A DNA stretch of 64,000 nucleotides from Streptomyces sp. NBC_01445 (lineage in GTDB: Bacteria; Actinomycetota; Actinomycetes; Streptomycetales; Streptomycetaceae): positions 9,641,001 through 9,705,000 of the forward strand of contig NZ_CP109485.1 in assembly GCF_035918235.1 (NCBI RefSeq). The letters are read 5' to 3'. Under the pieces are notes generated by a model. It had not been told where the DNA came from, made no database searches, and saw nothing but the letters and a program-made list of their open reading frames with translations. A program made the translations under genes and the position numbers. Positions 2,805 through 42,812 of the stretch are shown piece by piece. The stretch's first letter is position 1; every line of letters begins with the position of its first letter.

Positions 2805-3554
2805 TCAGCCGCGCTCGCGGAGGTATGCGTCCAGCTCTGCGGCCCCGGTCAGCATCGCCCGCCCGCGGGCGGACAGCCGGCCCCGCCAGTCGCACAGTGC
2901 GGCCTCCAGCGGCTCAAGGCCGCCGGCCGCCCGTACTTGGGCGATCAGCGGGGCGATCTGCTCCAGCAGGTAGCCGCCCCGCCTGAGTTGATGGGCGAGC
3001 CGGGCGTCCCGTACGTCGGCGTCGTCGTAGACCCGGTACCCGGTCCGCGCGTCGCGGCGCGGGTGCACCAGCCCGGCGCCCTCCCACTTGCGCAGGGTCG
3101 CGGGCCGGATTCCGAGCTTGGCTGCCAGCGGCCCGATGAACGTGCCGCCGGACCCGGTCACGGCAGCCGGCTCGGACCCCGCACCGGGCTCGGGCGCGGT
3201 GGTGGGATCCAGGTCGACAAGGGCGTTCTCCACGGCCTGAAGGGTCCGGCGGTCGTCGAGGAGCTGGGCGTGGCTCTCGTCGACGAGGCGGAACGCCTCC
3301 TCGGCCGCGCCCTCGTTCAACGCCCGCATGATCGATGTCGCCCTCTGGTGACCGTGGCCGGGCAGCAGGGCGAGGAACGCGCGCAGGGCTCCCGCGTGCA
3401 GCGAGGTATAGGTGCGGTAGCCGTGAGGTGTGCGACGGGCGGCCGGAAGGATGCCGGCCTCCTCGTAGTTCCTGACCGCCTGGGTCGACAGGCCGTGCTC
3501 GCGCGCCAGATCAACCGGCCTGAGCCGCACCCTGCTTTGAAGGTCTGATCCCAT
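2805..3554 (-). CDS. MerR-family regulator with two HTH_MerR domains
   Basis: The 249-residue protein has a first MerR winged-helix near residues 10-60 (VDLAREHGLSTQAVRNYEEAGILP, PHGYRTY) and a second, partly degenerate one near 145-190 (AAKLGIRPATLRKWEGAGL, ARTGYRVYDD). This TioE-like layout with two MerR heads is typical of actinomycete regulators. It is divergent from an erythromycin-esterase-like gene with 68 bp between the starts, so it probably controls that gene and itself. The inducer is unknown. Confidence 0.85.
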   Translation of the reverse strand: MGSDLQSRVRLRPVDLAREHGLSTQAVRNYEEAGILPAARRTPHGYRTYTSLHAGALRAFLALLPGHGHQRATSIMRALNEGAAEEAFRLVDESHAQLLDDRRTLQAVENALVDLDPTTAPEPGAGSEPAAVTGSGGTFIGPLAAKLGIRPATLRKWEGAGLVHPRRDARTGYRVYDDADVRDARLAHQLRRGGYLLEQIAPLIAQVRAAGGLEPLEAALCDWRGRLSARGRAMLTGAAELDAYLRERG

Positions 3555-36316: not shown

Positions 36317-36818
36317 GTGTGTTCCTCTCGAAACTCGTCCAGAACTCCACGGGTCACGCGAGCTCAGTGCCCGAGCCGGGCTTTTTGCAACGCCACGAAC
36401 CAGCTTCGGACGTACACGGGGGCCAACGGAGAGGGTGGCGGCGAAAAGACCGGAATGGGCATTTTGTCGACGTCACTCTAGCTGAGGGGCACCATTTCGG
36501 CGCGTCGAGAAATCCTCATCGAGAAGGTGGTGTCGATGGCCGGCGTGAAAGCGCCGCCCTCGAGCCGGGTGCAGGTGAACTCGACTGCACCTGCGCGCCG
36601 TTGAGGGGAGCTCGTGACGGGAAAGAGACGGGAAACTCGGTCCTCCACCGAATGGCATCACGTGGGCTCTTGCGGCCGGGGACCAGAATCAGAGTCTGCG
36701 GCCATTCAGTGCGTCGCGACGATGGCATGCACCCCAAATGCGATGATTTGCCCCAGTCAAGGCTGGTCGTAGTGTTTGGAGCGCCGACCCGTTCGCGCAT
36801 CGCAAGGGGCCCTCTTGC

Positions 36819-37104
36819 GGTTACCGTCAGTGACGTCTTCTCTGGAATTCTTCGTCATCATGGAGTGAAGGCAGTGTTCGGAATCCGGGATCGAATGAAC
36901 TCTCCTTCCGTACAGGGCGCCCGGACGACATCCCGTACTACCTGGTTCTCCAGGAGGGCGCCGCGATCGACATCGCCGACGGCTTCGCCCAGGCATCGGA
37001 CACCATCGGATTGGAACCGGCAATGCGATGGGCTGCATGACCAACACGGCCAGCTGTCACACGCCGATGGTGATCACGGCTGGTCAGCAGGCGCGGCGCT
37101 ATGT
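36819..37104 (+). pseudogene. benzoylformate decarboxylase-like TPP enzyme, N-terminal remnant in three frames
   Basis: The plus strand reads DVFSGILRHHGVKAVFG in one frame, PDDIPYYLVLQEGAAIDIADGFAQAS in the next and [29 protein letters not shown] in the third. In order these match the N-terminal TPP-binding domain of benzoylformate decarboxylase-type enzymes (VFGNPGSNELP, LQE-----IADGYAQAS, GNAMG, H-P-V-TAGQQ). At least two frameshifts and loss of everything downstream make it a pseudogene. Its last codons run into the DUF1348 gene. Confidence 0.75.
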
Positions 37105-37529
37105 GCATGGCGGAGGATGGATGGAACAGCCGGGACCCGCACAAGGTGTCCTTGGCGTATGCAGAGGACTCGCGTTGGCGAAATCGCAGCGAGTTTGTCA
37201 CGGGACGCGAGGAGATTGTCGAGTTTCTGACCCGTAAGTGGGAAAAGGAGCTCGAGTATCGGCTCATCAAGGAGCTCTGGGCATTCGGTGGCGATCGCAT
37301 CGCGGTGCGGTTCGCTTATGAATCACGTGACACCGATGGAAACTGGTTCCGATCCTACGGAAATGAGAACTGGGAGTTCAATCCGGACGGGCTCATGGCC
37401 GTGCGGCATGCCTCGATCAACGATGTACCCATTACGGAGGCCGACCGCAAATATCTCTGGCCGCTCGGGCGACGACCCGATGGACATCCCGGACTCAGTG
37501 AGCTGGGGCTGTCAACTACCCGGTCGTGA
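37101..37529 (+). CDS. DUF1348 (SnoaL/NTF2-like) protein, N-terminally truncated
   Basis: The frame encodes the DUF1348 core almost whole: [53 protein letters not shown] and [18 protein letters not shown], ending [15 protein letters not shown]. The usual first 15-20 residues are missing; the gene begins at the junction with the TPP-enzyme remnant, and ATG 37101 may be fortuitous. The last five codons (STTRS) come from the end of the tnpB element. Family function is unknown. Confidence 0.75.
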
Positions 37530-37539
37530 AACGACCGGG
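37519..37539. repeat. RE hairpin of tnpB element
   Basis: CCCGGTCGT-GAA-ACGACCGGG is a perfect 9-bp stem with a 3-base loop, about 50 bp past the tnpB stop. It is equivalent to the hairpin of the first element and would lie near the 3' end of the omega RNA. Confidence 0.75.
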
Positions 37540-37590
37540 CTTGCTGCTCGAGTCATCACTGGCTGTGATGGGGTCGGCTGCGTCCAGTTC

Positions 37591-38763
37591 TCACGCGATG
37601 AGGGTGAGTTCAGGGGCCGTTGACTGAGCCCCGCAGACCCACGCCATCCAGCCACGTTGGTGGATGTTGTGGGACGCGTTGTGGTCTGCGTGATCAACGA
37701 AGCCGCAGACCCGGCACGAGAAGACGGCCTGGGAGGGCCTGTTTGCGCGTTCGGTGTGATGGCACTGGGAGCATTCCTGGCTGGTGTAGGCCGGGTCGAC
37801 GTGCACGACCGGCGCTCCGGCCTTCTTCGCTTTGTAGGCGATGAACGAGCCGAGTTGCGCGAAGGGCCAGGAGTGGATCTTGACGCGTTGGGGCTTTCTC
37901 AGCCGTGCCCGCTCGCGGATGCCCGTGAGTGTCTCCAGGGCGATCCCGCGACCGGTGCGTTCAGCCTCCGCCACGATCCGCTTCGAAATCTTGTGGTTGA
38001 TGTCCTTGTTCCGCCGGGCTTCCTTGCCCGCATGCTTCTTCGCCCGCCGCTTGGCGGACTTGGTGTTCTTCTTCTGCAGCTTGGACCGCAGCTTCCGGTC
38101 ACTCTCGCGCTTGCGGTTGATCCGACGCCCGCAGTGGCGCTCGCCGTCGGAGGTGGCGGCGATGTTCACGATCCCCAGGTCGACGCCGAGGAACCCGGCC
38201 GGATGCGTGTTCAGATCCCCCTCGGGGATCTCGCAGGTCGCGATCAGGAACCATTTCCCGTCCTGGCACACCAGGTCGGACTCACCCTTGCGGTGCGCGG
38301 CCAGGACCTCCAGCTTCCCGGCCTGCCCGGTGTACGCCACGCCCTTGAGCCGGCCCGCGGTGGTCCAGATGGACACCGTGCGTGCCTGGTGCTGCCAGGA
38401 CAGCATCCGGTCGTCGTAGGGCTGCGCCGCTTGGGGCCGGAAGACCACCGGCTTGCCCGAGGCGCGAGTGTGCCGCCTGGTCCCGGGCCGCCCGTAACGA
38501 CCGTTACGCAGGTTCACCTTCAAGGTGGCGTAGGCGTCACAGGTCTTCTTGATCGCGTGCTGGGCGGCCTGCGCGCCAAGCCCCCACCTGACCCGGATCT
38601 CGGCATAGGCGTGCTTGCGGAGCTCCAGCGGACGTCGCGCGTTTTCCTCGAATGCAACCCCGGCCGCCCAGGTCGCCGCTTGATTGCAGGCGTGCAGGGT
38701 CGCCTCAAGTGCCGCCGCCTGTACGGGCGTCGGCAGCAGCTTCACCCGCACCACCAGCTTCAC
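37591..38763 (-). CDS. tnpB: RNA-guided endonuclease TnpB family protein
   Basis: The GTG at 38763 (VKLVVRVKLLPTP, a usual TnpB start) gives 390 residues; the frame is open further upstream but reads as junk. The RuvC residues are present: LGVDLGIVN (D), ALETLTGI (E) and HADHNASHN (D). A zinc ribbon with CSQCHH and CRVCG lies before the last Asp, and a basic bridging helix rich in Lys and Arg lies in the middle. The protein looks intact and differs clearly in sequence from the first TnpB. Confidence 0.88.
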   Translation of the reverse strand: MKLVVRVKLLPTPVQAAALEATLHACNQAATWAAGVAFEENARRPLELRKHAYAEIRVRWGLGAQAAQHAIKKTCDAYATLKVNLRNGRYGRPGTRRHTRASGKPVVFRPQAAQPYDDRMLSWQHQARTVSIWTTAGRLKGVAYTGQAGKLEVLAAHRKGESDLVCQDGKWFLIATCEIPEGDLNTHPAGFLGVDLGIVNIAATSDGERHCGRRINRKRESDRKLRSKLQKKNTKSAKRRAKKHAGKEARRNKDINHKISKRIVAEAERTGRGIALETLTGIRERARLRKPQRVKIHSWPFAQLGSFIAYKAKKAGAPVVHVDPAYTSQECSQCHHTERANRPSQAVFSCRVCGFVDHADHNASHNIHQRGWMAWVCGAQSTAPELTLIA

Positions 38764-39399
38764 GATCAGCGAACCTATACACCTGGACGAAGACCCACCA
38801 CACGTTCGCCCCACCTCACCCGAACGAGCGACACCCACCCCGACCCTCCCCGCGCACACCGCCGAAAAATCCCGGCTCCGCCTGAACGCCTCCCGGCAGC
38901 TCCGCGGCCGTGATGGCCTGCGGCACGTCACGGCGACGCTCCGCGTCACACCCCGTGGATGCGATTCCTCCCGAGCGTAAACGCCCAGGGCTCCTCGCAA
39001 GAATCCGCTGAAGAAGAGCAGGCCCAAGCACACGGCGAACCATGGGAAACAACACCCGGTCCTGGGCTCGGTGAGGGGCTTGAATGCCTTCCAGGACGGC
39101 TAGGAGGATGTGGGGCCCCACGTGGGCCCCGGGGCGAACCGGAATTCCACCCGTACCACCACCCGTCGGCCGCGGTGCACGGACATGTTGACTCGCAGGG
39201 AGTAGGCCATTGCAGGTCGAGTCGAGCTGGGGGACCACCACTGACCAGTGCTGACCACGGTGCAGCGCGTAGGGGAGCGGAGGACACCTTCGACGGCCAC
39301 ACGCGGATCGGCTGTCACGGGGTGCGGTTGCCCACGCCGCAGAAGTTCATCACCCTGGAAGGGGGATCCACGGCCCCGGGGTTGTGGGGAAGCGGTGCC
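38764..39399. other. stretch without a supportable gene
   Basis: Open frames here have no recognisable family. If the IS630 copy is removed in thought, this is the upstream region of the SpoIIE-type regulator gene and should hold its promoter; it ends in a good Shine-Dalgarno at 39400. I see no clear promoter hexamers. Confidence 0.4.
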
Positions 39400-39405
39400 A
39401 GGAGG
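39400..39405 (+). promoter_or_regulatory. orphaned Shine-Dalgarno of the SpoIIE-type gene
   Basis: AGGAGG at 39400-39405 is directly followed by TGCC and then the TA at which IS630 inserted. Without the element it would stand 8 bases before the GTG now at 40545, an ideal spacing. Confidence 0.75.
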
Positions 39406-39408
39406 TGC

Positions 39409-40497
39409 CTAGTGTCCTGAGTCATTAATTCGTGTGCAGTATGCGGCGAGGGTGTCGATGACGTCGTCGGCCCTTTTCGTCCAGACGAACGGCTTTGGGT
39501 TCTTGTTCCACTCGTTGATCCAGCCGCGGATGTCCCGTTCGAGTTCGACGACGCTGCGGTGGGCCGAGCGGCGGAGCTTGCGGCAGGTCAGCTCGGCGAA
39601 CCAGCGCTCGACGAGGTTGAGCCAGGACGCCGAGGTAGGCGTGAAGTGCAGGTGGAAGCGAGGGTGACGCAGCAGCCACTTCTTGACCGGCTCGGTCTTG
39701 TGGGTGGCGTAGTTGTCCAGGACCAGGTGAAGTTCGAGGTCCTTGGGGACAGCGGCGTCGATGACCTTCAGGAAGCGGAGGAACTCCTGGTGACGGTGGC
39801 GGCGGTAATGCTGGGCGATGACCGAGCCGGAGGCGATGTCCAGGGCCGCGAACAGACTGGTTGTGCCGTGCCGGACGTAGTCGTGGGTCATCTTCGCCGG
39901 CGTGGTCGGCGCCATCGGCAGCACGGGCTGGGTTCGGTCCAGGGCCTGTATCTGCGACTTCTCGTCCACAGCCAGGACCAGGGCGTTCTCCGGCGGCGAC
40001 AGGTAAATACCCACCACGTCACGGACCTTGGTCACGAACTGCGGGTCGGTCGAGAGCTTCCACGTCTCCACGATGTGCGGCTTGAGGCCGAACGCCCGCC
40101 AGATCCGCGAGACAGCCGACTGCGACATGCCCGCCGCCTCGGCCATCGAACGCGTCGACCAGTGCGAATCACCCTTCGGCGGCACCTGGTCGAGGGTCCT
40201 GGCGACCAGGGCTTCGACCTGCTCGTCCGTGATCTTCCGCGGCGCCCCCGCGCGTGGTCGGTCCACCAGACCCTCCAGCCGGTCCGTGGCGAACCGGGCC
40301 CGCCACTTACGTACGGTCTCCCGCGAGACACCCAGGTCCTCCGCGACCCGCGCGTTCGACAGGCCTTCAGCGCACGCCAGCACGATCCTCGACCGGAGTA
40401 CCAGCGCCTGCGACGCGGTCTGCTTGCGCAACCAGCCGCGTAGCACCCGGCGTTCGTGATCGGACAGCTCCAGCGACAACGGCTTCGGACCCGGCAT
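39409..40497 (-). CDS. IS630-family transposase
   Basis: The 362-residue protein has an N-terminal HTH (NARVAEDLGVSRETVRKWRARF), a second HTH-like region and the IS630/Tc1 DDE domain: AVDEKSQIQALDR (D), HLVLDNYATHKT (D) and SWLNLVERWFAELTCRKL (E). It appears intact and in one frame. Its TAG stop is completed by the TA target duplication and the flanking G. Confidence 0.92.
   Translation of the reverse strand: MPGPKPLSLELSDHERRVLRGWLRKQTASQALVLRSRIVLACAEGLSNARVAEDLGVSRETVRKWRARFATDRLEGLVDRPRAGAPRKITDEQVEALVARTLDQVPPKGDSHWSTRSMAEAAGMSQSAVSRIWRAFGLKPHIVETWKLSTDPQFVTKVRDVVGIYLSPPENALVLAVDEKSQIQALDRTQPVLPMAPTTPAKMTHDYVRHGTTSLFAALDIASGSVIAQHYRRHRHQEFLRFLKVIDAAVPKDLELHLVLDNYATHKTEPVKKWLLRHPRFHLHFTPTSASWLNLVERWFAELTCRKLRRSAHRSVVELERDIRGWINEWNKNPKPFVWTKRADDVIDTLAAYCTRINDSGH
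39410..39432. repeat. IS630 terminal inverted repeat, transposase 3' side
   Basis: The end TAGTGTCCTGAGTCATTAAT... matches the complement of the other end at 20 of 23 positions, including the TA target dinucleotide. This marks one terminus of the element. Confidence 0.85.
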
Positions 40498-40540
40498 CGC
40501 TCCACCCTACAACCGCAAGCGAACTAACGACTCAAGACAC
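39412..40540 (-). mobile_element. complete IS630-family insertion sequence
   Basis: An element of about 1.13 kb bounded by inverted repeats and flanked by TA at both sides (39410-39411 and 40541-40542), the normal IS630 target duplication. It carries one transposase gene on the minus strand. It separates a ribosome-binding site from its start codon. Confidence 0.88.
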
Positions 40541-40542
40541 TA
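40520..40542. repeat. IS630 terminal inverted repeat, transposase 5' side
   Basis: Read on the minus strand the end is TAGTGTCTTGAGTCGTTAGT..., the partner of the repeat at 39410. It ends in the second TA copy. Confidence 0.85.
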
Positions 40543-40544
40543 GC

Positions 40545-42812
40545 GTGGCTCACGACAGTTCATTCACCGTGGACGAGAACGGAATAGTCGTCGGCTGGCA
40601 CCATGAATCAGACCACATCTCACCTGCCTCGGCCCGCGAGATAGTCGGCCAGCCTGTGGGGCTGCTTCTTGGTCGTCTCCTCGATCAGTTCGGCGAATCC
40701 CACGTGGGCAACCCAGTGGCATTGCAGCTCCACGCTGAGCGGGAGGGCTCAAATACCGTCATTTCCATTCGAGACGCTGTCTGCGGAAGCCCCATATCGG
40801 GGGTCGAAGCCGTCTTCGAAACCGCAGCGTTCGAGCAGTCTGCGGCAGGCCTCGAGGCCTATGACACCAATTTGCACGTCTTGCGAAGCAACTCTTCCGC
40901 CCTCGCTATGCGCGGCCTCCCGGCCGACCGCGTTCTGGCACACCCGGTTGCAGACCTCGGCTCGCGTCTACCCCTCACACACCTTCTTGGGCGGGTCCTG
41001 AGCGGCAGCGAACCGGCAGTTCACGAGACTGTCCATGGCCACGACGGGCGCGGAGGCCAGCAGATCTTCTCTGTCACCGCGTTCAAGCTGCAAGAGGAGC
41101 TGCGGACCATCGGTGTCGGCGCCGTGATCCACGACGTCACGGGCCAGGAACGCGCTCAGTCCGCGGTACATCTGCTCGCTCGGGCTGAAACGGAGATCGG
41201 AACGACGCTCGACGCCATGCGCACGTCTCGTGACTTGGCTTCGGTCGCGACTCACGATTTCGCTGACGCCACTTCGGTGGACCTCGTCGATGCGGTCCTG
41301 CAAGGAGACGAGGCACCCGCGCCGCCACTATCCACCGACGTACCACTACGGCGAGCCGCTTTCGAATCAACAGGCGACACGCACGCCCTTTACCCGGTGG
41401 GAGAGACGAGTCAATTCGTCTCTCCCAGCCCGTACATGCAGGTGCTGACAGACCTTACGCCGCGGCTACTGGACCCGAAAACCTCAATGTCGGACTGGTT
41501 GATGCACGATGCCGCTCGTGCGGGCGCACTGCGGGATGCCGGCATCCATTCGATGATCATTGTTCCCTTGTCCTTCCACGGGCGTGTGTTGGGGCTGGTC
41601 AGTTTCTACCGTGGGCGACAGAATTCCGTTGCTTTCGATACATCCGATGTGGCGTTGGCGAAACAGCTGAGCGCGAAAGCGTCGGCCCACCTGGAGAACG
41701 CGCGCTGCTACACGAGGGAGCGCAACACCGCTGTCACGCTGCAGCGCAGTCTGCTGCCGCGGTCCTTCCCCGATCTTTCCGCGGTGAATACGGCGCACTT
41801 CTACACGCCTGGGGCCCGGCAGACCGTTTGGTTCGACGTCATCGAGCTCTCTGGGGCGCGGGTCGGGCTCGTTATCGGGCAGGTTTCCCGGCAAGGCCTG
41901 AATGAATCCGCCACCATGGGCCGCTTCCGCACCGCTGTGGGCACGCTTGCTGCCCTTGATCTCCCTCCAGATGAACTGCTGGTGCATCTCGACGACGCTG
42001 CCCGCTACATCCTCCCCGACCCTGCCGGCCCCCAGGCACTCTCGGGCTCCCTGCGATGCCAGTACGCCATCTACGATTCCGTGACCGGCGAACTCGCCAT
42101 CGCCGCCGCCGGGTGGCCGCCGCCTTTGCTGACCTCCCCGGCCGGCAGCGTCACTGAAGTGGACCTGCCGGTCGGCCCGCCCCTGGGGCAGGGGGCAAGT
42201 TACGAGTCACACCGCCAACACATCGCACCGCAGAGCACGCTGACGTTTTACTCCCCCTCGCTGCTGGGCCCGGGGCCCCGCTCAGAAGAACGTATTACCG
42301 AGCTACGGCAGGCTGTCGCCCACACTGATGACGGCCCGAAAGCCACCTGCGACAGCATCGTCGAGCGCCTGATGGGCCAACGTGCCGATGACGGCACCGC
42401 CATCCTCGTCGCGCAGACGCATCGCCTTCCCGACAGCTGTATTGCTACCTGGACAGTAAGTCGGGATTCCAGTGCGGTCTCTGCGTGCAGGCGACGGACC
42501 AGTCGCCAACTCAGGGACTGGGGCCTGGACTCGCTCGCCTTCACCACGGAGTTGGTCGTCAGCGAACTAGTGACCAACGTGATCAGGCATACCAGCGGTA
42601 TTCCTACTGTGCGCCTCATACGCGACCGCACGTTGACGGTCGAGGTCTCCGATGAAGCCGCAACATCGCCGCATTTGCGTCATGCCCGGGCCCAAGATGA
42701 GGACGGGCGCGGCCTGTTGATCGTCGCCTCTCTTGCCCAGCGCTGGGGAACCCGCTACAGGTCGAACGGGAAAATCATCTGGGTTGAAGAATCGCTTGAC
42801 AAAGGCACGTAG
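40545..42812 (+). CDS. multidomain regulator: PAS-like, GAF, degenerate SpoIIE/PP2C phosphatase, HATPase
   Basis: From GTG 40545 the protein has 755 residues. An N-terminal PAS-like sensor region comes first, then a GAF-type region to about residue 385, the RNTAVTLQRSLLP linker at about 394, a SpoIIE phosphatase fold, and an anti-sigma-type HATPase (ELVVSELVTNVIRHT at about 670, EDGRGLLIV G-box). In the phosphatase, GGDWYDV is changed to QTVWFDV and GDVxGHG to GQVSRQG, so two metal-binding Asp are lost; dephosphorylation is unlikely. The HATPase looks active. The gene's Shine-Dalgarno lies on the far side of IS630, so translation is probably poor. Confidence 0.85.
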   Translation: MAHDSSFTVDENGIVVGWHHESDHISPASAREIVGQPVGLLLGRLLDQFGESHVGNPVALQLHAEREGSNTVISIRDAVCGSPISGVEAVFETAAFEQSAAGLEAYDTNLHVLRSNSSALAMRGLPADRVLAHPVADLGSRLPLTHLLGRVLSGSEPAVHETVHGHDGRGGQQIFSVTAFKLQEELRTIGVGAVIHDVTGQERAQSAVHLLARAETEIGTTLDAMRTSRDLASVATHDFADATSVDLVDAVLQGDEAPAPPLSTDVPLRRAAFESTGDTHALYPVGETSQFVSPSPYMQVLTDLTPRLLDPKTSMSDWLMHDAARAGALRDAGIHSMIIVPLSFHGRVLGLVSFYRGRQNSVAFDTSDVALAKQLSAKASAHLENARCYTRERNTAVTLQRSLLPRSFPDLSAVNTAHFYTPGARQTVWFDVIELSGARVGLVIGQVSRQGLNESATMGRFRTAVGTLAALDLPPDELLVHLDDAARYILPDPAGPQALSGSLRCQYAIYDSVTGELAIAAAGWPPPLLTSPAGSVTEVDLPVGPPLGQGASYESHRQHIAPQSTLTFYSPSLLGPGPRSEERITELRQAVAHTDDGPKATCDSIVERLMGQRADDGTAILVAQTHRLPDSCIATWTVSRDSSAVSACRRRTSRQLRDWGLDSLAFTTELVVSELVTNVIRHTSGIPTVRLIRDRTLTVEVSDEAATSPHLRHARAQDEDGRGLLIVASLAQRWGTRYRSNGKIIWVEESLDKGT

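Follow-up and report, generated by a model that had tools for sequence, protein, structure and literature searches.

An IS630-family element with a full-length transposase lies between the Shine-Dalgarno (SD) sequence and the GTG start codon of a SpoIIE-type phosphatase gene in Streptomyces sp. NBC_01445, within a 64-kb stretch of DNA, the whole of which we call the window. We consider it probable that the element entered the spacer because a CTAG lay there, that its position relative to the SD is a coincidence, and that the gene has been silenced at the levels of both transcription and translation.

Results

Read directly, the window has AGGAGG-TGCC-TA-[1129 bp]-TA-GC-GTG at 39400-40547. The stranded SD, AGGAGG, occupies 39400..39405 on the plus strand and is followed by TGCC (39406-39409) and TA (39410-39411); the element, on the minus strand, takes up 39412..40540 and runs GTGTCCTGAG...CTCAAGACAC, and a second TA (40541-40542) and GC lead to the GTG at 40545. 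A sequence-only reading of this DNA had placed the SD, the TA-flanked IS630 copy and the GTG at these positions, correctly. The imperfect terminal inverted repeats of the element (GTGTCCTGAGTCATTAATTCG and GTGTCTTGAGTCGTTAGTTCG) match at 18 of the 21 outermost bases, and relatives have similar ends. Its transposase (39409..40497, minus strand, 362 amino acids [aa]) reached 275.9 bits against the IS630 model NF033545 (transpos_IS630; cut-off 100) and, in a Pfam scan, 61.9 bits for the DDE_3 domain PF13358 (cut-off 28.6); all 362 residues were aligned in 12 of 15 relatives, while L045, L046 and L053 gave partial frames. By domain content, inverted repeats, TA duplication and CTAG target, the element belongs to the IS630 family of the Tc1/mariner superfamily. 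The genome (11.47 Mb, two contigs) holds one copy of it, together with six further matches that are 71-75% identical.

Scanning genome contigs for an empty site yielded one locus (L038), in Streptomyces sp. CB01635, which is labelled as the same species as the window genome and whose SpoIIE-type protein is 97% identical. The locus reads AGGAGGTGCCTAGCGTG, exactly what remains of the window's flanks once the element and one of the two TAs are taken out. The single TA of this natural empty allele, against two in the window, confirms the target duplication. The sequence-only reading had suggested such an alignment as a check and had claimed that removal of the element and one TA would leave AGGAGG-TGCCTAGC-GTG, with a spacing of 8 nucleotides (nt); the product of that removal equals the natural allele, with the same SD and start.

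The SpoIIE-type gene (40545..42812, plus strand) is intact, encodes 755 aa from its native GTG and shares start and length with its aligned homologues. It carries PAS_4, GAF, SpoIIE and HATPase domains (PF08448, PF13185/PF01590, PF07228 at 90.9 bits, and PF13581), the set of SpoIIE, sensor and HATPase domains that is seen in SpoIIE-type phosphatase regulators. Among 392 genomes of the genus, relatives at E <= 1e-190 were found in seven, the window's own genome included. All 21 aligned homologues start no more than one residue away from the window's GTG, most of their start sites being database predictions; these homologues were drawn from the best 22 of 120 listed proteins, with P0015 (682 aa, shorter) omitted and P0023 and those below it unaligned. 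Upstream of the start, L061 (63% identical) and L009 (59%) keep GGAGGTGCC 8 nt before the aligned ATG, L009 having an additional ATG one codon further upstream; in L062 and L010 the AGGAGG is separated by 9 nt from an ATG at a comparable N-terminus, and in L063 a GGAGG that pairs at -9.5 kcal/mol lies 7 nt ahead of a GTG. Neither a different start nor a missing SD, which would have spoken against the sequence-only reading, was seen in these relatives. From the homologue starts and the SD spacing in orthologues we reject a different native start for the gene, and by these comparisons both the SD and the GTG start appear well supported.

The predicted pairing between the 16S rRNA tail and the 20 nt that precede the GTG falls from -13.9 kcal/mol in the empty allele to -0.5 kcal/mol in the occupied one; at 3000 random window positions the mean was -4.4, with values of -12 or lower at 0.8% and of -14 or lower at 0.2%. 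The search for an alternative start or SD for the gene at 40545 gave none. The frame is open upstream into the element, where the only in-frame start before a stop, GTG 40254, pairs at -1.7 kcal/mol, and eight further in-frame starts within the first 130 codons of the gene pair at -5.9 kcal/mol or more weakly. These values and the intact frame bear out the earlier statements that the coding sequence is whole, that its SD has been cut off from the start and that no replacement SD stands at the element's end.

The native leader and presumed promoter region of the gene (39147..39399, plus strand) adjoins the start in L038, to which window positions 39147-39412 are 95.9% identical, and is now separated from the coding sequence by 1.1 kb. 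A sigma-70-like promoter scan of 39100-40700 gave no site, and a search inside 40380-40545 for TANNNT, the relevant -10 motif, gave none; one TANNNT, noticed by eye, overlaps the GTG itself (40541-40546) and is present in the empty allele too. The native leader with its SD (39147-39405) has no TANNNT, so that the native promoter was not located there and may be of another type. Two terminator-like sites were found in the scan of 39100-40700, against 0.7 expected, one of them at 39454-39471 (plus strand) in the element's left end, and Rfam gave no match on 36500-41000.

The coding sequence shows no sign of decay or of relaxed selection after the insertion when compared with the CB01635 gene by dN, dS and branch counts. 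The two genes differ at 27 codons synonymously and at 23 non-synonymously (dN 0.015, dS 0.052). When the 23 amino-acid differences were polarised with three homologues at 87-89% identity, the window branch received 9 and the CB01635 branch 11, of which two lie in its altered tail, while 3 were unassigned; this nearly even split does not support decay. Two of the nine, V54 and Q359, are also found in P0001, a protein cluster (98% identical) with nine member sequences, which leaves seven in the window alone. Q359 had been a candidate for a change in the window lineage at a residue that otherwise does not vary and was set aside, because P0001 also has Q and the change need not follow the insertion. 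An intact coding sequence without relaxed selection would fit either a recent insertion or continued use. The CB01635 protein itself has different last residues and stops at 750 aa (WVEIA) rather than 755, as if its gene had undergone a small frameshift at the 3' end (L038:10230-10253).

Copies of the element and of its ends were sought in the 392 genomes. The left flank is CTA in all 16 close copies, one in the window and the other 15 spread over 12 further genomes, and the right flank is TAG in each of the 15 that have one; the flanks of L041 and L051 are alike, these two being one insertion in a terminal repeat, which makes one fewer independent copy, and in L053 the first base of the element differs. 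The exact 21-base end pattern, which misses variant ends, matched 49 times in 18 genomes, a count of ends and not of independent insertions, and 48 of the matches, in 17 genomes, are preceded by CTA. The remaining one is a 40-bp solitary left end without transposase, flanked by CCA (L064:1200-1239, G233:C46). Because 48 of 49 exact ends abut CTA, the element's target is CTAG. With its terminal G and C the element in fact yields a CTAG at both junctions: on the left from the target's C-TA and its own first G (39409..39412), as the flank comparison shows, and on the right from its own last C and the target's TA-G (40540..40543).

CTAG is scarce in this DNA: base composition predicts 185 in the window, which has 10, the two junctions of the element included; extrapolation from the window would give about 1,800 in the genome. 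A pattern search of the genome returned 19 GGAGG-CTAG-RTG arrangements (15 distinct), counted as sequence patterns irrespective of gene starts. The same pattern read backward gave 131 and 96 matches, far above those 19, and was not taken as a fair null, containing as it does GATC in place of the rare CTAG. A CTAG positioned between SD and start in this way is thus uncommon, not unique. That the element chose an SD or a start codon as such was considered and rejected, in view of 14 other loci with both flanks (13 distinct insertions), which show the CTAG target; in a flank scan for starts within 30 nt and frames of at least 80 aa, none of them had a strong SD and a start on opposite sides of the CTAG. 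L040 and L047 have a start with an SD nearby, but with both on the same side. With some 1,800 genomic CTAG sites and 15 distinct ones in the GGAGG-CTAG-RTG arrangement, the insertion between SD and start would be a mild coincidence of where a CTAG lay rather than the work of an SD-seeking element.

The transposase frame crosses the left inverted repeat without a stop of its own, and its TAG comes from the target, whose CTA is read on the minus strand (39411-39409). The stop is supplied by the target in this way in 21 of 21 copies (18 distinct insertions after identical flanks were merged, with L007 left out), including copies in the window's own genome at 64-66% protein identity; L045 and L046, with broken transposase frames, nevertheless have the same target-closed end. 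Since a transposase gene inserted at any other TA would lack its stop, this suggests a simple selective reason why the subfamily may be so strict for CTAG.

Just upstream of the insertion locus a TnpB-family gene (NF040570, 200 bits) lies at 37591-39033 on the minus strand. CB01635 lacks about 1.7 kb at this place (window 37432-39146; L038:7462-7999), including TnpB and the 3' end of a neighbouring 142-aa gene (37101-37529). The tail of that gene in the window resembles the usual tail of its family, so that a deletion in CB01635 seems likelier than an insertion in the window. Elsewhere in the window's own genome, three more distant IS630 copies, L003 (G000:C2:51429), L004 (G000:C1:10381025) and L005 (G000:C1:51431), have a common left flank and sit about 51-52 kb from both ends of its 10.4-Mb contig and from one end of its 1.04-Mb contig, which suggests long terminal inverted repeats common to a chromosome and a linear plasmid.

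Discussion

The insertion is ordinary, an IS630 element in the CTAG target that is usual for it. The element, with its full-length transposase, has transposed into the CTAG of the SD-to-start spacer, duplicating TA, and the SpoIIE-type gene would then have been silenced by the removal of its SD together with its separation from leader and promoter, transcription and translation being affected together. On the sequence evidence, silencing is likely, and it is probably not purely translational, because 1.1 kb with an antisense transposase gene separates the leader from the gene; transcription loss and SD loss would be equally likely reasons for a silent gene. The sequence-only reading had called the insertion a translational knock-out, which is apt in that the SD has been separated from the GTG and too narrow in that the leader has been displaced along with it.

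Several points weigh against this reading. CB01635 is the single element-free allele compared from the same species, a dN/dS of about 0.29 without an excess of changes on the window branch is also what one would expect of a gene still in use, and the native leader likewise has no recognisable promoter, so that little can be made of the lack of a promoter signal in the element. Moreover, leaderless mRNAs account for 21% of primary transcription start sites in Streptomyces coelicolor and are thus common in the genus (PMC4895711, in extract), and for this reason loss of the SD alone does not prove silence. One could accordingly envision an occupied allele that is still expressed, from an outward promoter of the element that gives a leaderless or short-leader transcript beginning near GTG 40545, or as a longer fusion from inside the element, for which the frame is indeed open from GTG 40254 to 42812 (852 aa); the even distribution of amino-acid changes would agree with this as well. 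We nevertheless regard continued expression as unlikely, given the lack of promoter-like sites in the stretch scanned, the failure of the hexamers at leaderless spacing to fit TANNNT, the lack of an SD before GTG 40254, and the preference of S. coelicolor leaderless genes for AUG (76.4%; PMC4895711, in extract). It is a good deal easier to suppose, although we would hold it somewhat short of an even chance, that the insertion has no phenotype, the SpoIIE-type gene being one of many paralogues: 125 first-look candidates were found in its own genome, and all 10 of those that were scored matched the protein. This possibility concerns the phenotype and not silencing itself, and redundancy is not evident, as the best-scoring of the ten is 39% identical over residues 7-754.

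The sequence-only reading had further held that precise excision could reverse the effect, and this is unsupported. In ISY100, a relative that has been studied, excision proceeds through double-strand breaks made two bases within the 5' ends (PMC2170065, in extract), for which reason imprecise repair with footprints would be predicted here. A footprint of 2-4 bp in the non-coding spacer would leave the protein undamaged and would set AGGAGG 10-12 nt, rather than 8, before the GTG. Efficiently translated genes of S. coelicolor are marked by a polypurine motif 8-12 bp upstream (PMC4895711, in extract), and because the longer spacing would move AGGAGG further from that region, the restored initiation would probably be weaker. 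Excision could thus in principle restore initiation at least partly, and with a full-length transposase, both ends present and a site at which a small footprint should be harmless to the protein, the element might be imagined as a reversible switch that returns the SD to a workable distance and turns the gene on again at a useful frequency. We find this very improbable. The one same-species allele (CB01635) shows neither an excised nor a footprint state, and its spacer looks never visited rather than excised, having the same 8-nt length as those of L009 and L061; the genome has a single copy of the element, the element is not tied to SDs at any of the 14 other loci, and a footprint would stretch the spacer.

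Silencing by a CTAG-targeted insertion remains our preferred reading, and several features of it have parallels. The IS630 of Shigella sonnei (Tenzen 1990; Tenzen and Ohtsubo 1991) reportedly duplicates TA and prefers TA within CTAG; the window element shares the family and both habits with it and differs in host, presumably in sequence, in having 48 of 49 exact ends at CTAG and in sitting between an SD and its start. The supply of a stop codon by the target is a new instance of an IS870-like trait, not a new principle. IS870 is an element of Agrobacterium, and by the title of Fournier et al. 1993, as cited in PMC6471742, it is said to depend on CTAG for making the stop codon of its large ORF1; we liken the two by that trait alone, here seen in 21 IS630 copies of this genus, and not by family or sequence. 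ISY100 of Synechocystis has the Tc1/mariner/IS630 family and the TA duplication in common with the window element, but enters TA almost exclusively, with no CTAG requirement described in the extract of that report (PMC2170065); the window element uses CTAG. A literature search for insertion sequences between an SD and a start codon, judged by titles and abstract openings, found none.

That CTAG-seeking IS630 elements in general could serve as reversible switches wherever a CTAG lies in an SD-start spacer, imprecise excision being sufficient, we think even more remote than a switch at this one gene; if it were true, the non-coding spacer would let imprecise excision restore a ribosome-binding site that works at least in part. 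The occupied and empty alleles, with proteins 97% identical, form a natural pair in which the importance of the SD for a Streptomyces regulator may be tested, and the insertion shows the target word of an element deciding which genes can be silenced.

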